A stretch of DNA of 31,226 nucleotides from a virus. Below the pieces are notes generated by a model, which saw nothing but the letters and a program-made list of their open reading frames with translations, had not been told where the DNA came from and made no database searches. The position numbers and the translations under genes are program-made. Location of the stretch: the IMG/VR virus record IMGVR_UViG_3300044733_002188, positions 1-31,226 of that record; one strand, 5' to 3'. Shown here one piece after another: positions 8,182 to 17,739 of the stretch. Each line of letters begins with the position of its first letter. Position 1 is the first letter of the stretch.

Positions 8182-8396
8182 AGCCCATCTCCTTTCCGTG
8201 CCTCGATCAGCTCCAGCGTCCGCGACAACGCGATGCACCGTTCACGCAGCTCCTCGTTCTCGCAGTCGATCTTGAGCAGCACCGACAGCACGCCGTCGGC
8301 GTTGCGGGCCAGGTCGCCGTCAGAAAACCGTGCAAAGAACGACAGCCAGGTGCAGGCGTCGTCTAGGTCGCGGACGGGGCGGGGGCGTCTGCTCAT
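8178..8396 (-). CDS. Hypothetical phage protein (72 aa)
   Basis: A small helical protein (LARNADGVLSVLLKIDCENE, RERCIALSRTLELIEARKG) with no recognised domain. It overlaps the IbrA-like gene by ATGA on one side and the winged-helix gene by GTGA on the other. Its position as a spacer in a coupled chain supports translation. Confidence 0.65.
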   Translation of the reverse strand: MSRRPRPVRDLDDACTWLSFFARFSDGDLARNADGVLSVLLKIDCENEELRERCIALSRTLELIEARKGDGL

Positions 8397-9670
8397 GCCA
8401 CGGCCTCCGTGTCGAATAGCGTGCGTGCAGGCTTCGCGGGCTTCTTCTTGGCAGCCTTTTCAGCCTTCTCGGCTGCCCTGCGTGTGTCGCGAATGCGGAT
8501 GTATTCGCCGTAGGCGTCGCTCTTCGGCTGTGCCTGCCCCAGCCCCTTGCACCAGTAGTCATTCCGCAGAAGCACCTTGCACATGCGACGCCACGACGGA
8601 GCCCAGCACTTGGCCTCAAGCTCTGGCGGCGCTTCGTCAGGGATCGCCGAGTAGCCCCGCTGATGCCAGCCCCAAATAAACTTCTTGAACCTGGCCAGAT
8701 AGTGATCTCGCGTCTTTCTCGGCATGGTCTGCAACAGCAGGTTGCAGAACGAACGCCATGTGTGCCCGTCTGGCTTTGTGATCTTGTGATAGCCAGTGAC
8801 GTTGCCACGCTCCTCGACGTAGAGCGCCCCACTGTTGGCACCGTTCACGCGGGCGACGAGCTTGAACCACGTCTGCGGTTCCAGAATGTGGTACAGCCAC
8901 AGCCCGCGGCGCTGGTCGTCGCCGAACGGCTGGCAGAGTCGCTGCTGCGACAGCTTCACGCCGGCCTGGTGCATCCGGTCGTAGATAGCGTTGTGCGGCT
9001 TGTCGGGATACTTGGCATGAAACCGCCAAATGTCCTCGGTCAGCCAATCGTAGATCGGGTAGACGTTGTAGACCTTGTCAACGATGTTCGTCGTCCAGCG
9101 GCGTCCGCCAAGCGTCTTGCCACGCTTCTCCCACGTTGCAATCGCACAGTAGCGGTGCAGGCTTTCTTGAGCGCGAATGCCAATGAATCCGGCAGTGAGC
9201 TCGCCCTGCCCATACCACTCTCCGAAAAGCACGATGAACTCCTCAAACTCCATGCCAGCGACGGCGAACGGATAGTCGGCCTCGGTCTTGCAGCCCCACG
9301 GCTTGTCGCGAATCCACGCCTCTCGCTTGTCAACGTCCCAGCACTTCCACCGCGGCTCGTAGTTCGTCACGGCGTTGCGGAGCAGCATGGGCATACAGAT
9401 CCAGTGCGGATCGATGTGCCTCTGGTACATGGTGAACATCTCGTCAATGTGTTCGATCGTGTCGGCGTACTGGGCCTCAAAGTCGATGAACATCACCGCT
9501 ACCTTGCGGTCGCGGCGGACTGCCTCCTCCATTACGAGGTGCATCATCACGCTGGAATCCTTGCCGCCACTGAAGGCGACGTAGATGCGCTGGAAGTTAT
9601 CGAACGTCTCGGCAATGCGACGGCGTGCAGCCGTCAGCACATCAACGTCCCGATATCGCTTGACTCCCAT
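8393..9670 (-). CDS. IbrA-like phosphoadenosine phosphosulfate reductase-family protein (DUF3440)
   Basis: This 425-residue protein is an ATP-pyrophosphatase of the PAPS reductase/DndC superfamily. The nucleotide-binding loop is AFSGGKDSSVMMHLV at 32-46. FIDFEAQYADTIEHI and the region GFIGIRAQESLHRY followed by YPIYDWLTEDIWRF match the DUF3440 type found in E. coli IbrA. Several cysteines occur, but no reductase-type ECGLH tail. The last 35 residues are Lys/Ala-rich. Its start overlaps the stop of the ParB-like gene as TGATG, and the two belong together in known ibrAB pairs. In E. coli, ibrAB affect expression of immunoglobulin-binding surface proteins. The biochemical reaction is unknown. 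Confidence 0.85.
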   Translation of the reverse strand: MGVKRYRDVDVLTAARRRIAETFDNFQRIYVAFSGGKDSSVMMHLVMEEAVRRDRKVAVMFIDFEAQYADTIEHIDEMFTMYQRHIDPHWICMPMLLRNAVTNYEPRWKCWDVDKREAWIRDKPWGCKTEADYPFAVAGMEFEEFIVLFGEWYGQGELTAGFIGIRAQESLHRYCAIATWEKRGKTLGGRRWTTNIVDKVYNVYPIYDWLTEDIWRFHAKYPDKPHNAIYDRMHQAGVKLSQQRLCQPFGDDQRRGLWLYHILEPQTWFKLVARVNGANSGALYVEERGNVTGYHKITKPDGHTWRSFCNLLLQTMPRKTRDHYLARFKKFIWGWHQRGYSAIPDEAPPELEAKCWAPSWRRMCKVLLRNDYWCKGLGQAQPKSDAYGEYIRIRDTRRAAEKAEKAAKKKPAKPARTLFDTEAVA

Positions 9671-10806
9671 CAGTAAATCTCCATCTCGCGGTCTGGTGCT
9701 GCCGTGTCCATGTCAACCGGCTTCCGTCCGTTCGACTTCAGCCACTTGTTGAGTGCCTGCAACGCAGCCTTGTTGGCTGCCTCCTGCTGCTCCTGCGTCA
9801 GAAGGTAGAAGCCGCCTCGATAGACAGCCGGAATCCCGAGCGAGTAGCAGGTAGCAGCCTGTCCGAGCCACGCAATGCGATTCATCGCTGCATTGGTGAG
9901 GTAGTGCTCGCAGCTGTGCTTCCACTCTGACACGACGCCGGCAAGTGCCTTCTTGAACTTCGGAATGTCGGCCAGGAGGTCACGCATGGCTTCCTCGCAG
10001 TCGGCCTTGGTCATGCCGTCCTTGGTCGTGGCGTAGAAACCAGCCTTGTGGCACTCCCACTTTTCGTAGGTGTGAAACACTCGCCCATCGTCGGACGTGT
10101 TTACGGTGCGGAAGTTTTCCGTCTCCTCGCCATAGGTTTGGATGTCGTCGGTCAACTCTCGGAAGTCAGCCTCGGTGACACTGCCCTCGACGTCCCATGA
10201 CTTGCTGAACTCCTGATCGCTGAACAGTTCTGCCAGGCCGCTGATCTGGCAAAGCCGCAGGATTTCGTCCTGATCCATGCCAAGCTCGCGGGCGATCTTC
10301 TCGTCGGACCAGTTGCGGCGCTTCAGCTCTACAACGATCTCGCTCATCGCGGCTACGGCGTGCTTTCCTCGAGCGCGGTTGTGGCGAATCGTTGACGCAA
10401 TGCGGTCGCCGCGGTCCTGCCGGTCAGAGTTGATGACCGCCAGGGGGAGATATCCGCGGATGCGTGACCGCACCTCAATGCACTCGCGACCGATACGGTT
10501 GCGGTGAAAGCCGTCAACCACCTCGTGCATGGTCTCGCGACGCCACGCCACGACAGGCTGCGTATAGCCGTCCTCGAGGATCGACAGTCGCAGCAGCTCC
10601 ATCTCTGGCGGCGCGACGCTGTTGGGGTTGTAGTCGTTGGCTTGAATGTTCTCGGTGTGTACCCACTGGATGCAGTCAACGGGCTCGCGGGCAAAAGGCC
10701 CAGCATCGTGCATCATCCGCCTGGCGGCATTCAGTTCTTCAATCTGCTGGGCAAGCGGCAGAGCTCGCAGCTTGTCGCACCACTGGGCAATTAGGTCGAG
10801 CATCAT
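9670..10806 (-). CDS. IbrB-like ParB-domain protein
   Basis: This 378-residue protein has a ParB/sulfiredoxin-fold domain at about 50-140: VHTENIQANDYNPNSVAPPE, then RLSILEDGYTQPVVAWR and HEVVDGFHRNRIG, the GxHR-type signature. An HTH-like segment follows (WSDEKIARELGMDQDEILRL). The C-terminal half is a helical region (EKWECHKAGFYATT) seen in longer IbrB-type proteins. It is adjacent to and coupled with the IbrA-like gene. ParB-fold proteins in this class may have nuclease or nucleotide-binding activity rather than a partition role; no ParA gene is nearby. The start is ATG 10806, with AAAGGA about 10 nt upstream. Confidence 0.85.
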   Translation of the reverse strand: MMLDLIAQWCDKLRALPLAQQIEELNAARRMMHDAGPFAREPVDCIQWVHTENIQANDYNPNSVAPPEMELLRLSILEDGYTQPVVAWRRETMHEVVDGFHRNRIGRECIEVRSRIRGYLPLAVINSDRQDRGDRIASTIRHNRARGKHAVAAMSEIVVELKRRNWSDEKIARELGMDQDEILRLCQISGLAELFSDQEFSKSWDVEGSVTEADFRELTDDIQTYGEETENFRTVNTSDDGRVFHTYEKWECHKAGFYATTKDGMTKADCEEAMRDLLADIPKFKKALAGVVSEWKHSCEHYLTNAAMNRIAWLGQAATCYSLGIPAVYRGGFYLLTQEQQEAANKAALQALNKWLKSNGRKPVDMDTAAPDREMEIY

Positions 10807-10971: not shown

Positions 10972-11196
10972 TCAGTCTCCTGTCCAGACGACGTCAGGCT
11001 GCCGCTGCGGCGGCGGCTCGTACTGGTGCAACCTCTTCGCCAGGGCGTCAACCTTGTCCTTCAGAGCCTCCTCGCGGAGGTACGCATCTCGCGACCTTGA
11101 ATCCAGCGAACGAATGAACGACGCCATGTCGGGCCTGGCCTGCCGCTCGAGGTACTCCGCGATGACGCTGGCGTCGATGGTCAGGGGCTCAGGCAT
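10972..11196 (-). CDS. Hypothetical phage protein (74 aa)
   Basis: A helical, charged protein (TIDASVIAEYLERQARPDMA, LKDKVDALAKRLHQYEPPP) with coiled-coil character in its second half. ATG 11196 has GGAGGTGA a few bases upstream and lies 8 nt inside the end of the RecT-like gene. No domain was recognised. It may be an accessory to RecT, by position only. Confidence 0.7.
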   Translation of the reverse strand: MPEPLTIDASVIAEYLERQARPDMASFIRSLDSRSRDAYLREEALKDKVDALAKRLHQYEPPPQRQPDVVWTGD

Positions 11197-12028
11197 TCGT
11201 CACCTCCTCGGGCTCGCTCATCAGGATCTCGACGCGGCCCATCAGCAGCTTCGTCAGCTCGGCAAACTCGTCGTCGCTGATCTCGCCGCCGTCGTGGTAG
11301 ACGTCGAGCTTGCTGCGGAGCGCCTCGCACGCCTCAATCGTCGCGGCGGAACCGATGGCTAGGCGGCCCGCGTCGGCGCGAGACCGCTTGATCTCGGGCG
11401 CGTGCTTGGGCTTGAGCGGCACAACCGTCTCGGTCGTGTCGAACTTGGGCCGCACAACCACGGGCTCGCGGACGGGCTCGGGCGTGGGGTAGTCCTGGGC
11501 CTCCTCCGCAGTCACGAGTCCCTTCAGCACGTCAGGGAAGGCGTCACGCAGGGCGAAACCACGAGCCCGCAGTTGCAGCATCCTCTTGGGGTACTGCGTC
11601 CACGGGCCAGCCTTACCCCACAGGCCTGCTTTCTTGGCGTCGGCAACGCTGAATCGCACAACGGTCGGCTTTGGGTAGCCTCGACGCTTGGCGGTGCAGG
11701 TCGCAACCAGCGTTTCGCCTTCCTTGCCTTCCTCAATCTCCTCAACCACGTACTCGCAGACCGGGCTGCTCTGCACCAAGGCAAGGGCAGCGTCACCCCA
11801 GATGCTCGGTCGTCCGTTGATAACGGCAATGCACTGAAGGCTCTGCATCGGGCCGAGGCCCAATTCCGCACCGTGCTGGATCGCCAGAAGGCACGACTCA
11901 GGCTTGCCCTTGAAATCCTTGGGCGCGAAATCCGATGCCGCCACCATCTTGGCGAACCGGAAAGCGTCGTCGAACGATTGCAGCGCCAATCCTGTTGCAG
12001 CACGCTGCGTGCTGATTTCCGTGCTCAT
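11189..12028 (-). CDS. RecT-like single-strand annealing recombinase
   Basis: This 279-residue protein shows the sequence order of phage RecT-family annealases: AFRFAKMVAASDFAPKDFKG, CLLAIQHGAELGLGPMQSLQ, then CIAVINGRPSIWGDAALALV, and near 150-185 GPWTQYPKRMLQLRARGFAL followed by RDAFPDVLKGL. These proteins coat and anneal complementary single strands during phage recombination and replication. An exonuclease partner (RecE/lambda Exo type) was not recognised in the window. The C-terminal 90 residues are acidic and variable. The start ATG 12028 has GAAAGGACGCAGAG upstream, part of a leader motif shared with two other genes. Confidence 0.85.
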   Translation of the reverse strand: MSTEISTQRAATGLALQSFDDAFRFAKMVAASDFAPKDFKGKPESCLLAIQHGAELGLGPMQSLQCIAVINGRPSIWGDAALALVQSSPVCEYVVEEIEEGKEGETLVATCTAKRRGYPKPTVVRFSVADAKKAGLWGKAGPWTQYPKRMLQLRARGFALRDAFPDVLKGLVTAEEAQDYPTPEPVREPVVVRPKFDTTETVVPLKPKHAPEIKRSRADAGRLAIGSAATIEACEALRSKLDVYHDGGEISDDEFAELTKLLMGRVEILMSEPEEVTNA

Positions 12029-12616: not shown

Positions 12617-12841
12617 TCAAAACGTGATGTCTCTCACGGGCACCGACAGCCACGCCCCGCCGACGTCAATGCAGGCGTCGCCGTTGTCGAAAAACCAATC
12701 GATCCTGCCGCTCCAGGGCTTGCCGCAAGACACGCCTGACACGTAGTCGCCGACGGCGTAGGTGCGGGTGAGGGCCGACGGCATCGTGTGGTCGGCCATT
12801 CCGGCCACGGCAGCGAGGTATTCCGATCTGTGCGGGTCCAT
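12617..12841 (-). CDS. Hypothetical small protein (74 aa) under an operator-controlled promoter
   Basis: This 74-residue protein starts at ATG 12841 with GGAG about 10 nt upstream. It contains RTYAVGDYVSGVSCGKPWSG and RIDWFFDNGDACIDVGGAWL, a beta-rich pattern like a small SH3-type or KOW-type barrel. This is an impression, not a family call. Its promoter, at 12994-13021, holds the palindromic operator. The leader of about 145 nt (12842-12987) has no other gene. Confidence 0.65.
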   Translation of the reverse strand: MDPHRSEYLAAVAGMADHTMPSALTRTYAVGDYVSGVSCGKPWSGRIDWFFDNGDACIDVGGAWLSVPVRDITF

Positions 12842-12966
12842 GGGGGCGGTCTCCGTTTGTGGTGGGGCAAGCCTATACAGCCGTACACTAGAGTCAAGCG
12901 TCAGAAAACACTGGAAAACAAGGTGTGGAGCGGTTTGTGTTTGTTGGATTTCTGTCTACTGGTTTG

Positions 12967-12982
12967 CTAACGCCTGCGTTAG
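12967..12982. promoter_or_regulatory. Operator palindrome copy 1 (CTAACG-CCTG-CGTTAG)
   Basis: A perfect inverted repeat of CTAACG. It lies in a 22-bp direct repeat with copy 2 (21 of 22 bases identical, 30 bp apart, about three helical turns). Here the -35 and -10 equivalents (TCGACG, TAGCAA) are degenerate, so this copy is probably an auxiliary binding site. Confidence 0.65.
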
Positions 12983-12993
12983 TTGCGTCGAGC

Positions 12994-13021
12994 AAGATAA
13001 CGCCTGCGTTAGTTCCGTCAA
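12994..13021 (-). promoter_or_regulatory. Promoter with operator copy 2 in its spacer
   Basis: The minus strand reads TTGACG (13016-13021), a 16-nt spacer, then TATCTT (12994-12999). The spacer contains GAA and the operator CTAACG-CAGG-CGTTA. The -35 overlaps the TGA stop of the 47-aa gene. It drives the 74-aa gene at 12617-12841. A bound repressor would block sigma factor contact with both hexamers. Confidence 0.6.
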
Positions 13022-13161
13022 GAGAAGAATCTGCCGATTGTCGAAACCAGCAGGTCAATGCCGTGGGCTATTGCCTGCGCCGTGCTCGAGTCCGTGCCAA
13101 GTTCCTGGCCGAGGCGGACAAGGACGAGCGATTGAATCAGCGAGTCGATGCGGCGTTTCAT
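13018..13161 (-). CDS. Hypothetical very small protein (47 aa)
   Basis: ATG 13161 has an excellent AAGGAGGG 5-6 nt upstream. The product (MKRRIDSLIQSLVLVRLGQE, LGTDSSTAQAIAHGIDLLVS, TIGRFFS) is helical with amphipathic segments. A much longer frame exists upstream but reads as Arg/Cys-rich shadow. No family was recognised. It lies in the operator-controlled early block. Confidence 0.6.
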   Translation of the reverse strand: MKRRIDSLIQSLVLVRLGQELGTDSSTAQAIAHGIDLLVSTIGRFFS

Positions 13162-13205
13162 GCTGGCCCTCCTTGGCCGAAAGAATCCTGTGTGCGCAAA
13201 GCAAT

Positions 13206-13478
13206 TTATTTCGTGCGATTGAGCAAGCCTTGAAGCGTGGCGACTATGCCTTGAACATCGTTCTGGTGGGATACGCAATATTCTTCCGCCCACTCCTGAT
13301 AGACGCCGACAACACACTCCACTGCAGCAAGTTCTTGTGCAGTAAGCGGAGATTTTAGGTGCTTCCACTGACTGACCTTCACTGCCAGCAAGTCACGCTC
13401 ATCAAGAGCACGCCTCAAAGCAAACTTGAGGTCAGCAATCTGTTGACAAAAGCCTTCCCGCTCAAGTTGGTCAGCCAT
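13206..13478 (-). CDS. Hypothetical early protein (90 aa)
   Basis: A helical protein with a coiled-coil-like start (REGFCQQIADLKFALRRALD, ERDLLAVKVSQWKHL) and a C-terminal helix (VQGIVATLQGLLNRTK). ATG 13478 has TGAGG about 10 nt upstream. No domain was recognised. It is followed by the 47-aa gene after about 45 nt. Confidence 0.6.
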   Translation of the reverse strand: MADQLEREGFCQQIADLKFALRRALDERDLLAVKVSQWKHLKSPLTAQELAAVECVVGVYQEWAEEYCVSHQNDVQGIVATLQGLLNRTK

Positions 13479-13547
13479 TTCAGCGTGCCTCAGTTTTGTG
13501 TTTTCTCAAGTTTTTGCCGCCGTGCATTGCAATCATTGAAGATTTTG

Positions 13548-13571
13548 CCATCCGGCCCAATTGCCGGATGG
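13548..13571. terminator. Strong hairpin between two early genes (terminator uncertain)
   Basis: CCATCCGGC and GCCGGATGG form a perfect 9-bp stem with a 6-nt loop, located after the 74-aa gene ending at 13584 and before the start at 13478. No T run follows on the minus strand (CAAAATC), so it may be an attenuating or mRNA-stabilising structure rather than a classic terminator. Confidence 0.4.
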
Positions 13572-13583
13572 CTGGGTTCGCTT

Positions 13584-13808
13584 TCAGAGTTGACGGCCAA
13601 GGTAGCAGCCGGAAGCCTTCATCGCCGCAACACTTCCCCAGTGGATGCACTGGTTGCGAACGCAGAGTGCTGTGTTGTGCCAGCTGCCGTAGCAGTCAGG
13701 CCACCGATAGGCCGCCTTCGCCATCGCGTCGAATTGCTGGCGGGTAAATCCAAGGCTGATGACTTCGTTGCGAAGGGCTTGGCACTTGTTCTTGGTTGCG
13801 GTCGTCAT
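13584..13808 (-). CDS. Hypothetical early protein (74 aa), operator-controlled
   Basis: It starts at ATG 13808 with GGAG about 9 nt upstream. The protein (TKNKCQALRNEVISLGFTRQ, QFDAMAKAAYRWPDCYGSWH, NTALCVRNQCIHWG) has several Cys, His and Trp residues. CVRNQC could bind metal, but no family was recognised. The promoter with the operator variant lies directly upstream (13860-13887), giving a leader of about 45 nt. Confidence 0.65.
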   Translation of the reverse strand: MTTATKNKCQALRNEVISLGFTRQQFDAMAKAAYRWPDCYGSWHNTALCVRNQCIHWGSVAAMKASGCYLGRQL

Positions 13809-13859
13809 TGTTTCGTCTCCGGCTGGCGTTGCGTCAGGTCTCAATCGCCTGACACCCAC

Positions 13860-13887
13860 ATACTAGCGTTATCGTTAGTTCTTGCAA
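13860..13887 (-). promoter_or_regulatory. Promoter with operator copy 3 in its spacer
   Basis: The minus strand reads TTGCAA (13882-13887), a 16-nt spacer, then TAGTAT (13860-13865). The spacer and -10 include CTAACG-ATAA-CGCTAG (13863-13878), one mismatch from the perfect palindrome. Geometry is the same as the other two promoters: -35, GAA, operator, TAT. Confidence 0.6.
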
Positions 13888-13931
13888 GGGGGAAACAGGA
13901 ATTTTTTTCGGATTTTTCAAAACCCTGCGTT

Positions 13932-14180
13932 TCAGCGGGTTTTCTTGCGTTTGGCTGGCTTTTTCGGAGCGTCGCGCCGCCCGACAGACCGGACAGTCAG
14001 GGTGCCCTTGAGGGCTTCCGCGTCGGATCGGCGAATCAGCCAGGCTCGAGCGCCGGCCTTCCAACCGTCCAACCTGCCATCGCCAAGCAGCAGACGCACC
14101 CAGCCTTGGGTGCAGCCAGCCAATGCGGCTGCCTCGGCAACGGTAATCCACTCACGATCTGGTGATGCCACAGCAACCAT
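13932..14180 (-). CDS. MerR/excisionase-type helix-turn-helix protein
   Basis: This 82-residue protein begins MVAVASPDREWITVAEAAAL with AGCTQGWVRLLLGDGRLDGW next, the start of a MerR-like winged helix of the excisionase/AlpA (HTH_17) type, followed by ARAWLIRRSDAEAL and a very basic tail (PKKPAKRKKTR). It lies next to and divergent from the integrase, which suits an excisionase/recombination directionality factor or a phage regulator. Its promoter contains an operator, so it may be the repressor's own or a target gene. The -10 box ends only 6 nt before the ATG and there is no ribosome site, so the mRNA is probably leaderless. Confidence 0.75.
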   Translation of the reverse strand: MVAVASPDREWITVAEAAALAGCTQGWVRLLLGDGRLDGWKAGARAWLIRRSDAEALKGTLTVRSVGRRDAPKKPAKRKKTR

Positions 14181-14186
14181 GCCCCG

Positions 14187-14214
14187 ATACTAACGGCTGC
14201 GTTAGCCAAGTCAA
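14187..14214 (-). promoter_or_regulatory. Promoter with operator copy 4 in its spacer; leaderless start
   Basis: The minus strand reads TTGACT (14209-14214), a 16-nt spacer, then TAGTAT (14187-14192). The spacer holds the perfect operator CTAACG-CAGC-CGTTAG (14190-14205). Transcription should start at or within a base of the A of ATG 14180. It is the best promoter match in the window. Confidence 0.65.
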
Positions 14215-14358
14215 GCAAATCAGCCGTAAAAAAGCCTAATTTGCCAGCCGCAGGTTCCCGCCCGTATCGTGCAGTAGTGAACAGAACCTAAGTGGAGGAT
14301 AGGGTCTTGAACATCCGTACACTATCATGGCACGGACGCCAAAGAGAGGAGCCATGCC

Positions 14359-15264
14359 ATGACAGAGTCCAGACTACTCAGAGAAATCTACGAGAACGAG
14401 TACGCCGTCCTGCGAGCCCATAACGCAGGGTGCCGGCACCAATACCGCATGACTTTGCAGCGGTGGGCCGAGCAGCTCGGCCGGGAGCCGACCGTGGATG
14501 ACCTAGATGACTTGACCGTCCAGCGGTACATCGCCAGCCGCAGAGCCGTGGTCAAGGCTGCGACTGCCCGCAAAGATCGCAATCAGATAGCCGCATTGCA
14601 CCGCTACTGTGCCGCGCGTCGCTACACGGAGCAGTTCCCGACGTACCCGCAGATCAGAGCACCTGGACGCATACCGCGTGCGTACACGGTCGACGACGTC
14701 TCTGCCCTGCTCCGAGAGGCTTTGCGGAAGCGACCGCCTATACGCGGCACCACGCTGCAGCCGCACATGTTCCTGTCAACGCTGGTCCGGTGTTGTTGGG
14801 AGACAGCCGAGCGGATCGGTGCTCACCTGGCACTGGAGTGGCAGGACGTTGACCTAGCTGGGCGGTACGTGGTGTTTCGTGCCGAGGGCCGCAAAGGAGC
14901 CACGCGGGACATCATGCGGCCCATCTCGCATGACCTTGCCGGATGGATGGAGCAGATCCGTGCGGCAGAGAGCGAAAGCGTCTGGCCGTGGCACGCCGAC
15001 AAGAGCACGCTGTGGCATCACTTCAAGGGTCTTTGCAAGCGGGCTGGCGTCGTGAACCGAGGCTTCCACGGCCTGCGTAAGTCCGCTGCCAGCTACATCG
15101 CAGCCGCCGGTGGCGATGCCACCCAGCTGCTCGACCACAGCAACCCGGCAATCACCAAGCGCCACTACCTAGACGAGACGATTGCCAAGCCCAAGCAGAC
15201 GGCGATAGACCTCCTGCCCACGCTCGACCTCACCGACAAACCGCCGGAAAACCCGGCGGCGTGA
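14359..15264 (+). CDS. int: Tyrosine recombinase / phage integrase
   Basis: This 301-residue integrase catalyses site-specific recombination between phage and host attachment sites. Residues 1-100 form a SAM-like core-binding domain. The catalytic domain shows Arg152 (ETAERIG), Lys179 (EGRKG), the H-x-x-R box His237/Arg240 (HGLRKSAAS), His260 (LLDHSNP) and the nucleophile Tyr270 (RHYLDE). GAGAGGAGC lies about 8 nt before ATG 14359. The 150 nt upstream shows no clear sigma-70 promoter; TATCAT at about 14326 could be a -10 with a poor -35. A short arm-type DNA-binding domain is not evident. The attachment site could not be located. Confidence 0.95.
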   Translation: MTESRLLREIYENEYAVLRAHNAGCRHQYRMTLQRWAEQLGREPTVDDLDDLTVQRYIASRRAVVKAATARKDRNQIAALHRYCAARRYTEQFPTYPQIRAPGRIPRAYTVDDVSALLREALRKRPPIRGTTLQPHMFLSTLVRCCWETAERIGAHLALEWQDVDLAGRYVVFRAEGRKGATRDIMRPISHDLAGWMEQIRAAESESVWPWHADKSTLWHHFKGLCKRAGVVNRGFHGLRKSAASYIAAAGGDATQLLDHSNPAITKRHYLDETIAKPKQTAIDLLPTLDLTDKPPENPAA

Positions 15265-15305
15265 ATCATTGCTAGACTTTCAAACCACAGAAAAGGAGCG
15301 AACCG

Positions 15306-15662
15306 ATGGCGAAAAAGAAAAAGTCCGCGAAAGTCAAGGTACCGAGCATGGGCATGGCTGTCGTCCCTGCTGGCTGGAGCCTTGGCACTGATTGGCAAGT
15401 AGTGCAGATCATTCCCGCCACAGGCTATTGGGCGACGTACAAGGATGGCGGGAGGGAGCCAGTTGTGGCGTGGGCGATGCAGTGTCGCGTACTTAGAGAA
15501 GAAGAGCGTGGAGATTGGGGCGATGACGAAGTCGCGCCAGGATTTATCAGCCGCGTAATAGGGATTGTCGCGTGCGGTAGATCCCCCTGTCTGTACGAAG
15601 CAGACAGCGACTTTTTAGTCGACAGCGACGACGACTTCACTGGCTACGAGTATGACCGTTGA
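15306..15662 (+). CDS. Hypothetical protein downstream of int (118 aa)
   Basis: ATG 15306 has AAAAGGAGCG 6-7 nt upstream. The product begins with a lysine run (MAKKKKSAKVKVPSMG), has a middle with VVPAGWSLGTDWQVVQIIPA and ATYKDGGREPVVAWAMQCRV, and ends very acidic (DSDFLVDSDDDFTGYEYDR). Beta-rich, no recognised family. It is co-directional with int, separated by 41 nt, and probably expressed with it in lysogeny. Confidence 0.7.
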   Translation: MAKKKKSAKVKVPSMGMAVVPAGWSLGTDWQVVQIIPATGYWATYKDGGREPVVAWAMQCRVLREEERGDWGDDEVAPGFISRVIGIVACGRSPCLYEADSDFLVDSDDDFTGYEYDR

Positions 15663-15670
15663 GCTAGAGC

Positions 15671-15712
15671 TCGTGCGACGACAGAAGCCATCGCGGCTGG
15701 CCTATCGCACGA
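15671..15712. terminator. Inverted repeat between convergent genes, possible bidirectional terminator
   Basis: TCGTGCGA (15671-15678) and TCGCACGA (15705-15712) pair perfectly, with an inner AGCC/GGCT stem (15686-15689, 15695-15698). It sits exactly where the plus-strand int unit and the minus-strand protease gene converge and includes the protease stop. No T run is present on either strand. Confidence 0.4.
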
Positions 15713-16430
15713 GGCCCAGAATCCACTCCCGGTACAGGCTGACGCGGGTGTGAGCGGTCTCTTCGCCTTGGCGGCTCTTCAGCGTCGAACCCTTCGGGGC
15801 CATCGTGAAGCTGTTCACGCCGGCCAGCTTGCCGTTGGCGAACAGCGGGCCGCCGGAGTCGCCGGGAGAAATGCAGAATTCAAGCGTGCTTGTGCCGCAC
15901 GCCGCATGGCACACGATGAGGCTCCTGTCGAACCTCTCGATCGTCTGTGTCCCGGCTCGCAGCCTGCCGTCGTGGTCCGTGTGCCCCTCGGTCAGCCGTC
16001 CGTGCAGCCCGTAGCCGGCGATGCTGACCACCTGGCCGACGTGCTCGTCGCCGTTCGACAGGGCAGGGAAGAAGTCCAGCTCGAGCGGCTCGTCGCAGCG
16101 GACCAGAGCGAGGTCGTGCAGCCCGTGCACGTCACGCTGCCAATCGGGATGGATCACGACCGTCGCCGCAGCCCGCGGCAGCGTCCCCGACGTCACGATG
16201 ACATCGGTGCAGCCATGCACTACATGAGCCGCGGTGATGGCCCAGTGCGGCGACAGTAGCGTACAGGACGCAGAGGCCCGCCTGCCGTCCCCGCCGACGC
16301 CGCTGATGCGAGCCGTATACGTTGAGAACGACCGCCCGTACTCGACATACCGGGCGTCGGGCACGGCATCGTCGGTCGTGCCGGCCACCAGCGGCGAGCA
16401 CAGCACAGCGATGATGATGGCGGCACGCAT
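15702..16430 (-). CDS. Secreted trypsin-like serine protease
   Basis: This 242-residue protein has a signal peptide (MRAAIIIAVLCSPLVAG) and the chymotrypsin-fold triad: His69 in AITAAHVVHG, Asp106 in LHDLALVRC, and Ser192 in SPGDSGGPLF. Six cysteines (Cys57, 74 and 112 among them) could form disulfides. The protein should act outside the cytoplasm. Trypsin-like proteases are rare in phages. As the last gene before int it is a candidate lysogenic-conversion or host-surface-processing gene, or it could help release virions. The start at 16430 is fixed by the signal peptide but lacks a clear ribosome site. Confidence 0.9.
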   Translation of the reverse strand: MRAAIIIAVLCSPLVAGTTDDAVPDARYVEYGRSFSTYTARISGVGGDGRRASASCTLLSPHWAITAAHVVHGCTDVIVTSGTLPRAAATVVIHPDWQRDVHGLHDLALVRCDEPLELDFFPALSNGDEHVGQVVSIAGYGLHGRLTEGHTDHDGRLRAGTQTIERFDRSLIVCHAACGTSTLEFCISPGDSGGPLFANGKLAGVNSFTMAPKGSTLKSRQGEETAHTRVSLYREWILGLVR

Positions 16431-16454
16431 TGCCGCAGCATCGCGAAAGTGTCA

Positions 16455-16515
16455 AGCCGGGCGGGGGCGACCAGGGTGGAAAGGAGGGCACCCCGGCCGC
16501 CGCGCCCGCCCGGCT
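16455..16515. other. Long inverted repeat ahead of the protease gene
   Basis: AGCCGGGCGGG (16455-16465) and CCCGCCCGGCT (16505-16515) are perfect 11-bp arms around a 39-nt loop, including the stop codon of the 74-aa gene. On the minus strand this would form a very stable stem before the protease start. It may separate the protease from upstream transcription or shape its leader. No T run follows. Confidence 0.45.
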
Positions 16516-16739
16516 CACTCAGGCACGCCCGCCAACGCTGGCAGCGGCCTACGAATCTCGTCACGTCTCGCCAGCTCTACCGTGAGGTGATTCACCTCCG
16601 CGAGCAGCCGCTTCCGCTCGGCTAGGCATCGCAGCACCATGCCGGCGAGAGTACCGCTCGTGCCCGTAAACGCACCGCAGAATCGACGAGCAGCGTGCTC
16701 CATCGACTGCACCTCGTCGTCGCTGAGAGTCACGCTCAC
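16515..16739 (-). CDS. Hypothetical phage protein (74 aa)
   Basis: GTG 16739 overlaps the previous stop as GTGA and has AAGGA 6-7 nt upstream; an in-frame ATG at 16754 lacks a ribosome site. The product (VTLSDDEVQSMEHAARRFCG, AFTGTSGTLAGMVLRCLAER, KRLLAEVNHLTVELARRDE) is helical with a coiled-coil-like second half. No domain was recognised. Confidence 0.6.
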   Translation of the reverse strand: MSVTLSDDEVQSMEHAARRFCGAFTGTSGTLAGMVLRCLAERKRLLAEVNHLTVELARRDEIRRPLPALAGVPE

Positions 16740-16933
16740 GAGAAATCCTTCCACTCGTCGTCATCATCGTCGAGGTCGGCCCGCATCGCCTTGACCTCGG
16801 CGGAGATGCCCTGCAGGTGAGCAACAGCCGCCGTCGCGAATAGCGTATGCGTCGTGGCAATCTCGCTCACCGCCCTGGCGATCGCCAGCACGTCCTGCTC
16901 GAGAGCGGACACGCGAGCCTCTAGGTCGGTCAT
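16736..16933 (-). CDS. Small coiled-coil protein (65 aa)
   Basis: The product (MTDLEARVSALEQDVLAIAR, AVSEIATTHTLFATAAVAHL, QGISAEVKAMRADLDDDDDE) is a heptad-repeat helix ending in an Asp-rich tail. ATG 16933 overlaps the HNH gene stop as ATGA. It is a likely short homodimeric phage protein of unknown role. Confidence 0.6.
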   Translation of the reverse strand: MTDLEARVSALEQDVLAIARAVSEIATTHTLFATAAVAHLQGISAEVKAMRADLDDDDDEWKDFS

Positions 16934-17739
16934 GGCAACTTGACCGCTATCTTGTTGATGTTGCGTTTAGCTTTTAGCACGTCCGATTCAGACCAAAACA
17001 ACCTCATCTGCCCTCCGGGGATTTTGTCTTGCTTTCGCTGATTTTCTTCAGCCCACACTGGCCTTAGATTTGTGTAGTGGAACGCAACCGATTGCTGTTC
17101 GGGGTCAGTCAGGTCAAATGCCGCGCACGGAACAATGTGGTCGATGTGCCATTTACGGCGATTGGCCCAAGTCATGCCAGGAAGAAACTGTCTTTCAATG
17201 TGTGAAGCAAGCTGAACAGCGGTGCATCCAGAAACCTGCACAAGCCCTGCGCTTTTATGCGCACCGTGCGATTTCAGCACGGCATTGATTCTTCTTCTCA
17301 GCCTATCTGCAACAAGAAACGCAGGGTCCGAGTTCCTTTTGTTTCGCATGTACGCGGCAATCTCTTTACGCCTTTCAACACGGCGTTGCTTGTCTCGTTC
17401 TCTATAAGCCAAATATTGCCGCCTGCTAATCTCTTTATGTTTCTGTGGATTCAATTGCCGGCGTCGACGGATTCGTGCATTGATCTTTTCCCTGTTGCGC
17501 CTGGAATACTCGCAGACGGCAGCAATGAAATGCTGGCGGTTTTTGGCATACCGTTCCCTTCCTTTTTGCCGAATTTTTTCTCTGTTTTTCTCTAGATATC
17601 GCCTGTTTGCCTCAACGGCCTTCTCGGGGTGCTTTAGGCGAAACTGCCGCATCCACTCTCGGTGATATGCCAGGCGCTTTTCGCGTTGCTCTGGCGTTTC
17701 GTTTGCGTGCTTCTTGGACAAGCGAGTAGAGTCGCTCAT
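16930..17739 (-). CDS. HNH endonuclease with basic repeat region
   Basis: This 269-residue protein starts at ATG 17739 with AGGAGAG about 8 nt upstream. Residues 10-140 are an Arg/Lys/Glu-rich series of imperfect repeats (RYLEKNREKIRQKGRERYAK, SRRNREKINARIRRRRQLNP), typical of phage HNH proteins with a basic DNA-binding arm. The nuclease core at about 198-235 reads WHIDHIVPCAAFDLTD, then HYTNLRPVWAEENQRKQDK, matching the D-H, N and final N/K positions of the HNH fold. Base composition looks less GC-rich than the flanks. A homing or mobile role is likely; terminase-associated cutting is less likely because no terminase is adjacent. Confidence 0.8.
   Translation of the reverse strand: MSDSTRLSKKHANETPEQREKRLAYHREWMRQFRLKHPEKAVEANRRYLEKNREKIRQKGRERYAKNRQHFIAAVCEYSRRNREKINARIRRRRQLNPQKHKEISRRQYLAYRERDKQRRVERRKEIAAYMRNKRNSDPAFLVADRLRRRINAVLKSHGAHKSAGLVQVSGCTAVQLASHIERQFLPGMTWANRRKWHIDHIVPCAAFDLTDPEQQSVAFHYTNLRPVWAEENQRKQDKIPGGQMRLFWSESDVLKAKRNINKIAVKLP

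Follow-up and report, generated by a model that had tools for sequence, protein, structure and literature searches.

A candidate immunity switch in uncultured phages: a small excisionase-like winged-HTH protein and its putative operators are exchanged together

An 82-aa winged-HTH (wHTH) protein, encoded next to the integrase gene (int) in an uncultured, temperate-type, int-carrying phage family, is very probably an autorepressor that binds a set of dyad operators nested in promoters, as judged from the sequences of many relatives. With less assurance, we consider it probable that this protein is an autoregulated repressor of leftward early transcription, most likely the immunity (lysogeny-maintenance) repressor. 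The stretch of DNA analysed (hereafter the window) is an IMG/VR record of 31,226 bases, which was taken whole and is possibly a fragment.

Operators, promoters and genes beside int

Scanning the whole record for CTAACG-N4-CGTTAG, a check that the earlier note had proposed, returned exactly four sites with at most one mismatch, against 0.01 expected, and none of the shuffled sequences reached four. All of them lie within 1.25 kb and three are in promoter spacers: O1 (14190-14205), an exact dyad, inside promoter P1, O2 (13863-13878, one mismatch) in P2 and O3 (12997-13012, one mismatch) in the spacer of P3, and O4 (12967-12982, exact) follows 30 bp beyond O3 as a second operator, just past the predicted P3 start. 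When three mismatches were allowed, the motif was not enriched in the record (12 found versus 8.5 expected), and the signal thus consists of these four sites only. The promoters were predicted by consensus match and are supported by conservation; all three are on the minus strand. P1 (14187-14214, TTGACT-16-TAGTAT), the putative promoter of the wHTH gene, ends 6 nt before its ATG, P2 (13860-13887, TTGCAA-16-TAGTAT) lies just after the gene, and P3 (12994-13021, TTGACG-16-TATCTT) is an early promoter directed towards recT. The composite TTG-N6-CTAACG-N4-CG-N-TA-N3-T occurs in three copies (13021-12994, 13887-13860 and 14214-14187; expected, 0), each in the same register on the minus strand, with the dyad at the same offset after the -35 box and a 16-nt spacer, bearing out the single layout that the earlier note had described for three promoters. 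The fourth copy that it had placed 30 bp from one of the promoter sites is also present, in a 22-bp direct repeat (12968-12989 and 12998-13019, 30-bp offset) with one mismatch.

The wHTH gene (13932-14180, minus strand) encodes the proposed operator-binding autorepressor, and because the P1 -10 box ends so close to the ATG, the mRNA is predicted to start at the A of the ATG and to be leaderless. The 82-aa protein matches the excisionase family TIGR01764 with 30.5 bits (cut-off 28.8) and excisionase entries in PHROG, as well as Pfam HTH_17 with 26 bits, one below the cut-off of 27; no second domain was recognised. The AlphaFold2 model (mean pLDDT 72) has the order strand-helix-helix-strand-strand-helix, consistent with an Xis-like fold and a winged-HTH domain of the Xis type. 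Pukovnik Xis (PDB 4j2n) is the closest solved structure by sequence (7.9e-6) and also the best fold match of the model, with a Foldseek E-value of only 0.04, and the fold matches include a DNA-binding protein of phage P2 (4lhf).

Divergent from the wHTH gene lies int (14359-15264, plus strand), encoding a tyrosine integrase (Pfam Phage_integrase, 4.7e-12; phrog_1 integrase, 3.3e-28); downstream of it, an ORF on the minus strand (15702-16430) has a PHROG protease match (phrog_9683). The small ORFs that follow the wHTH gene are all on the minus strand as well: a 75-aa ORF behind P2 (13584-13811; its start ATG at 13811 is preceded by GGAG) and a 90-aa ORF (13206-13478), both with no family match, and a 47-aa ORF (MKRRIDSL..., 13018-13161) whose stop codon overlaps the -35 box of P3. 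The early genes read from P3 and from a second early promoter, P4 (12870-12897, minus strand), begin with a 74-aa ORF (12617-12841, minus strand) and continue with the RecT recombinase (11189-12028, minus strand; Pfam RecT, 3.9e-11) and then ParB-like and PAPS-reductase-like proteins; at 8393-10806 the PAPS-reductase-like/DUF3440 protein directly adjoins the ParB-like protein in this operon. P4 has no O-type operator and carries a different palindrome. Its consensus is common to different wHTH types, across which the palindrome-like motif TGNACGGGCGTACANT is kept, and this motif may reflect a second regulator or a promoter class. An exact match to TGNACNNNCGTACA is found upstream of int (14308-14321), and the P4 spacer of the window seems 2 nt shorter than that of a close relative, L005 (see below).

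Conservation and exchange of protein and operators

Relatives were collected by scanning viral contigs for int, the wHTH protein, RecT and the motif. A pattern scan of the whole collection gave 55 contigs, many probably by chance, and weight was therefore placed on loci with a wHTH homologue. The set assembled comprises 57 distinct viral loci that have a wHTH gene, match the promoter and extend far enough downstream, and their wHTH proteins form 16 types at 70% identity. The operator sites are conserved in these relatives, one of the points on which the earlier note had made its reading depend, the layout being present in 57 distinct loci. The P1 spacer with its operator measures 16 nt in 55 of the 57, the start codon is 6 or 7 nt past the P1 -10 box in 56, and int lies immediately before the wHTH gene in divergent orientation in 53, while the remaining four sequences end too early to show it. 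P2, identified independently of P1 by taking the best promoter match past the wHTH stop codon, lies 15-125 nt beyond that codon in 45 of the 57 loci, and P3, defined by its tandem operator copy, was found in 26, belonging to five types. Its two operators are 22-37 bp apart across loci, mostly 30 bp in types 0, 7 and 43; in type 21 the spacing is 22 bp. Close relatives (L018, L024, L007, L022 and L021) differ in how far P3 lies from the wHTH stop codon, with distances of about 0.5 to 1.8 kb, so the intervening small genes appear to be freely gained and lost. In three relatives (L040, L110 and L115), runs of at least nine C lie 3' of the wHTH gene between -35-like and -10-like boxes, where a change in run length could alter promoter spacing.

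The association holds when approached from the early operon: RecT loci with at least 4.4 kb of upstream sequence carry int in 41 of 41 cases and this wHTH family in 38, and no int-free relative was found among these 41. The remaining three, L108 together with L073 and L092 (from reading frames), encode another kind of small HTH-like protein in that position. This other class, upstream of RecT, has the sequence MTVRQVM.EIGARA.STVTRL..., and the P1-like promoter of its gene in L108 has a AACGATCGTT palindrome in the spacer.

Operator sequences differ between wHTH types and agree within a genome. The similarity of P1 and P2 operators within a genome was 8.70 of 12, versus 7.22 (sd 0.28) with deranged types (14 types; maximum 8.07, none of 2000 derangements being as high as observed), and that of P2 and P3 operators, compared in the 23 of the 26 P3 loci that also have P2, was 10.20 versus 7.19 (sd 0.64, maximum 9.40; five types), values to be taken as guides and not as exact probabilities, because the permutation tests treat types as independent, which is only roughly true. 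In the negative control, P4 did not match the P2 operators (5.51 versus 5.54). These independently defined promoters replaced an unrestricted 2.6-kb search for operator copies, which was too noisy. The two arms of the operators covary as inverted repeats, both at P1 (2.79 versus 1.83, sd 0.22; 0 of 3000 shuffles) and at P2 (2.79 versus 1.95, sd 0.20; 0 of 3000), and they do so outside the fixed TA, which points to dimer binding; types 21 and 34 depart from this, their dyad symmetry being weak or lacking. In the wHTH alignment a single residue is invariant, R29 in the second (recognition) helix. Read by eye, the sequence of this helix appears to go with the operator half-site across types: GW-R with CTAACG (type 0), GLIRLRL with TACCG, (R/S)(Y/W)IR with GTTCCG, Q(Y/F)IR with GTTGCG and GR(V/M/I)RQL with TCTAACGCCG.

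The best evidence that the wHTH protein and the operators belong together is, in our judgement, a natural swap between the window and L005 (IMGVR_UViG_3300042554_000932). The integrases of the two are 100% identical, and the DNA is 98% identical both at 14263-17012 and at 13163-13848, where the middle genes lie and the 90-aa protein is the same. The wHTH proteins are 23% identical and all four operators have changed: the block with the wHTH gene, O1 and O2 (13849-14263) is only 46% identical and the block with the 47-aa ORF, O3 and O4 (12954-13162) 59%. The sites of L005 are of the TTCTAACGCCG type and at the same positions, with the P1 site in the opposite orientation. On these alignments, the protein and its four sites have been replaced together although they lie in two blocks apart from each other; the 47-aa ORF has diverged along with the operators and so may contribute to the switch. 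Three other pairs combine near relatives of int with distant wHTH proteins (L096/L051, int 99% and wHTH 24% identical; L086/L088, 100% and 32%; L071/L091, 93% and 30%), and L039/L040 is a milder case (96% and 43%). Since the protein was exchanged with its sites in L005 and pairs with them type by type, the 82-aa protein, which the earlier note had listed among several possible binders, is the one we favour, and the small repressor regulon next to int that it had proposed gains strong support from 57 loci in which int is divergent wherever the sequence suffices and the operators covary with the wHTH protein.

Neither the wHTH protein nor the integrase nor the DNA matched a cultured phage. RecT relatives occur in a few MAG contigs and in 2 of 392 planctomycete genomes, and a profile search gave no wHTH gene in the RecT-bearing MAG loci. 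Matches to the P1 pattern in the planctomycete genomes were judged to be chance, the pattern had no matches in 398 genomes of a second phylum, and no integrated prophage or host was found in these 392 and 398 genomes. LexA of the host was discarded as a candidate operator binder, given that operator sequence varies with the wHTH type of the phage; the regions upstream of lexA inspected in planctomycete genomes were uninformative on LexA binding.

An immunity repressor and the alternatives

In the mechanism that we propose, the Xis-fold wHTH protein would bind the dyad operators, probably as a dimer, and cover P1, P2 and P3 from just after the -35 box into the -10 box; since the operators overlap these promoters, the bound protein would block RNA polymerase at all three. 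O4, located shortly after the P3 start, may contribute cooperativity or act as a roadblock, and the expected outcome is a steady low expression of the wHTH protein together with silencing of P3. A role in immunity is the best reading of the swaps and of the int neighbourhood, because the gene is divergent beside int and is exchanged with its operators between near-identical phages. The operators overlap the early promoter P3, the putative repressor's own promoter P1 and also P2, and related phages that differ in the specificity of the protein also differ in that of the operators. Against this reading stand the fold and family label, which are those of an excisionase, the restriction of the tandem-operator P3 to 26 of the 57 loci, the poor dyad symmetry of types 21 and 34, the failure to find an integrated prophage or host in the genomes searched, and the predicted autorepression of P1, the gene having no other visible promoter for expression in the lysogen. 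As P4 leads into the recT operon and has no O-type operator, silencing of the early operon may take more than the wHTH protein. The observation of the earlier note that no large CI-type repressor was seen holds for 14 records of 31-45 kb, which gave no match to the S24 peptidase that often accompanies the HTH_3-type domain of lambda-type CI and none above cut-off to HTH_3 itself, an absence that is not proof because the records may be incomplete fragments.

The main rival arises from the fold: because this is an excisionase's, the protein might be a dual excisionase-regulator akin to P2 Cox and 186 Apl, serving primarily as the recombination directionality factor (RDF, or Xis) of the adjoining integrase and only secondarily as a regulator, another factor keeping lysogeny. 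We regard this as unlikely. The above-cut-off TIGR01764 match, the PHROG excisionase matches, the proximity to Pukovnik Xis in sequence and fold and the constant adjacency of the gene to int all favour an RDF, but RDFs bind at att to directly repeated sites spaced by 10-11 bp (PMC7498355), and the sites described here are inverted dyads inside promoters, with arms that covary as inverted repeats and tandem copies 22-37 bp apart. There is no further operator site around int, nor any other with at most one mismatch in the record, in which att was not located. It would moreover be hard to square the identical integrases of the window and L005, paired with such different wHTH proteins, with a shared att-specific RDF.

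We find it less probable still that the wHTH protein is a Cro-like damper of early transcription in lytic growth and that a different, unrecognised immunity repressor acts at the same or other operators, such as the P4 palindrome. The gene does point in the direction of the early genes, its own promoter would be repressed by the layout and the second palindrome at P4 is independent of type, but repeated swaps of protein and operators with int and neighbours unchanged are the pattern expected of immunity specificity, and no other repressor family was recognised in the 14 records. Hardly credible, finally, is binding of the dyads by a host regulator, or their being merely part of a promoter class: the right arm overlaps the -10 box, making the pattern partly promoter sequence, but operator sequence tracks the phage wHTH protein, inside a single phage family and at multiple promoters simultaneously, the arms covary outside the fixed TA, and P4 promoters are without the dyad.

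If the wHTH protein is indeed the immunity repressor, a fold that steers excision can act as a minimal lysogeny repressor, and a ready set of matched repressor-operator pairs would be at hand for reading DNA choice by a small winged-HTH protein. The signature of a leaderless P1, an operator in the spacer and a divergent int alongside could then be used to type the immunity group of temperate-type phages without recognisable repressor. On the broadest form of the proposal we are evenly divided: that in a large int-carrying uncultured phage family the main immunity repressor is a protein of excisionase fold, with at least 16 protein types that have different operators and are swapped as matched protein-plus-operator sets, giving a natural code from recognition helix to half-site.

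Comparison with known systems

In lambda, the CI repressor gene and its operators are exchanged as a module (immI), several operators lie at the early promoter, and the repressor mRNA from PRM is leaderless. Unlike in lambda, no CI or S24 domains were recognised here, the small putative repressor appears to be self-negative, P1 and P2 have single dyads in place of the OL/OR arrays, and P1, unlike PRM, would be autorepressed with no other lysogenic promoter in sight. MerR-type activators have an effector domain and bind a dyad placed in an unusually long promoter spacer (19-20 bp); the present spacer is 16 nt in nearly all loci, and no second domain was recognised in the 82 aa. BldC of Streptomyces is a cellular developmental regulator that is not known to be linked to phage immunity. 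Its minimal wHTH fold (PDB 6ama and 6amk) is similar and is used as a transcription factor. Pukovnik Xis is described as an excisionase, with no operator-swapping repressor role claimed in those parts of its description considered here.

The Apl protein of phage 186 and the Cox protein of phage P2 recognise direct repeats spaced by one turn, both at att and between promoters that face each other, and a separate immunity repressor exists alongside them (PMC7498355). They resemble the wHTH protein in being small, excisionase-type and regulators of early promoters (a role predicted in our case), and differ from it in that the dyads of the present phages lie inside promoters and no additional repressor was recognised. 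A similar evolutionary pattern is known in the Cluster A mycobacteriophages (L5, Bxb1), in which repressor specificity and binding sites co-diverge, giving heteroimmunity, and in which the stoperators are asymmetric, numerous, genome-wide and mostly outside promoters, with some within the early promoter (PMC6550527). The phages described here share with them the joint divergence of repressor and site sequence and the presence of sites in an early promoter. Unlike the many asymmetric, one-orientation stoperators spread over those genomes, the sites of the window number four, are mostly dyadic and cluster close together, largely in promoter spacers, and their putative binder is an 82-aa Xis-fold wHTH protein. 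Co-divergence of repressor and sites is thus already known from Cluster A (PMC6550527), and what differs here, as far as sequence comparison and modelling indicate, is that the protein is a minimal one of Xis fold, that dyads sit within promoter spacers, that the gene is predicted to be leaderless and that so many types exist.
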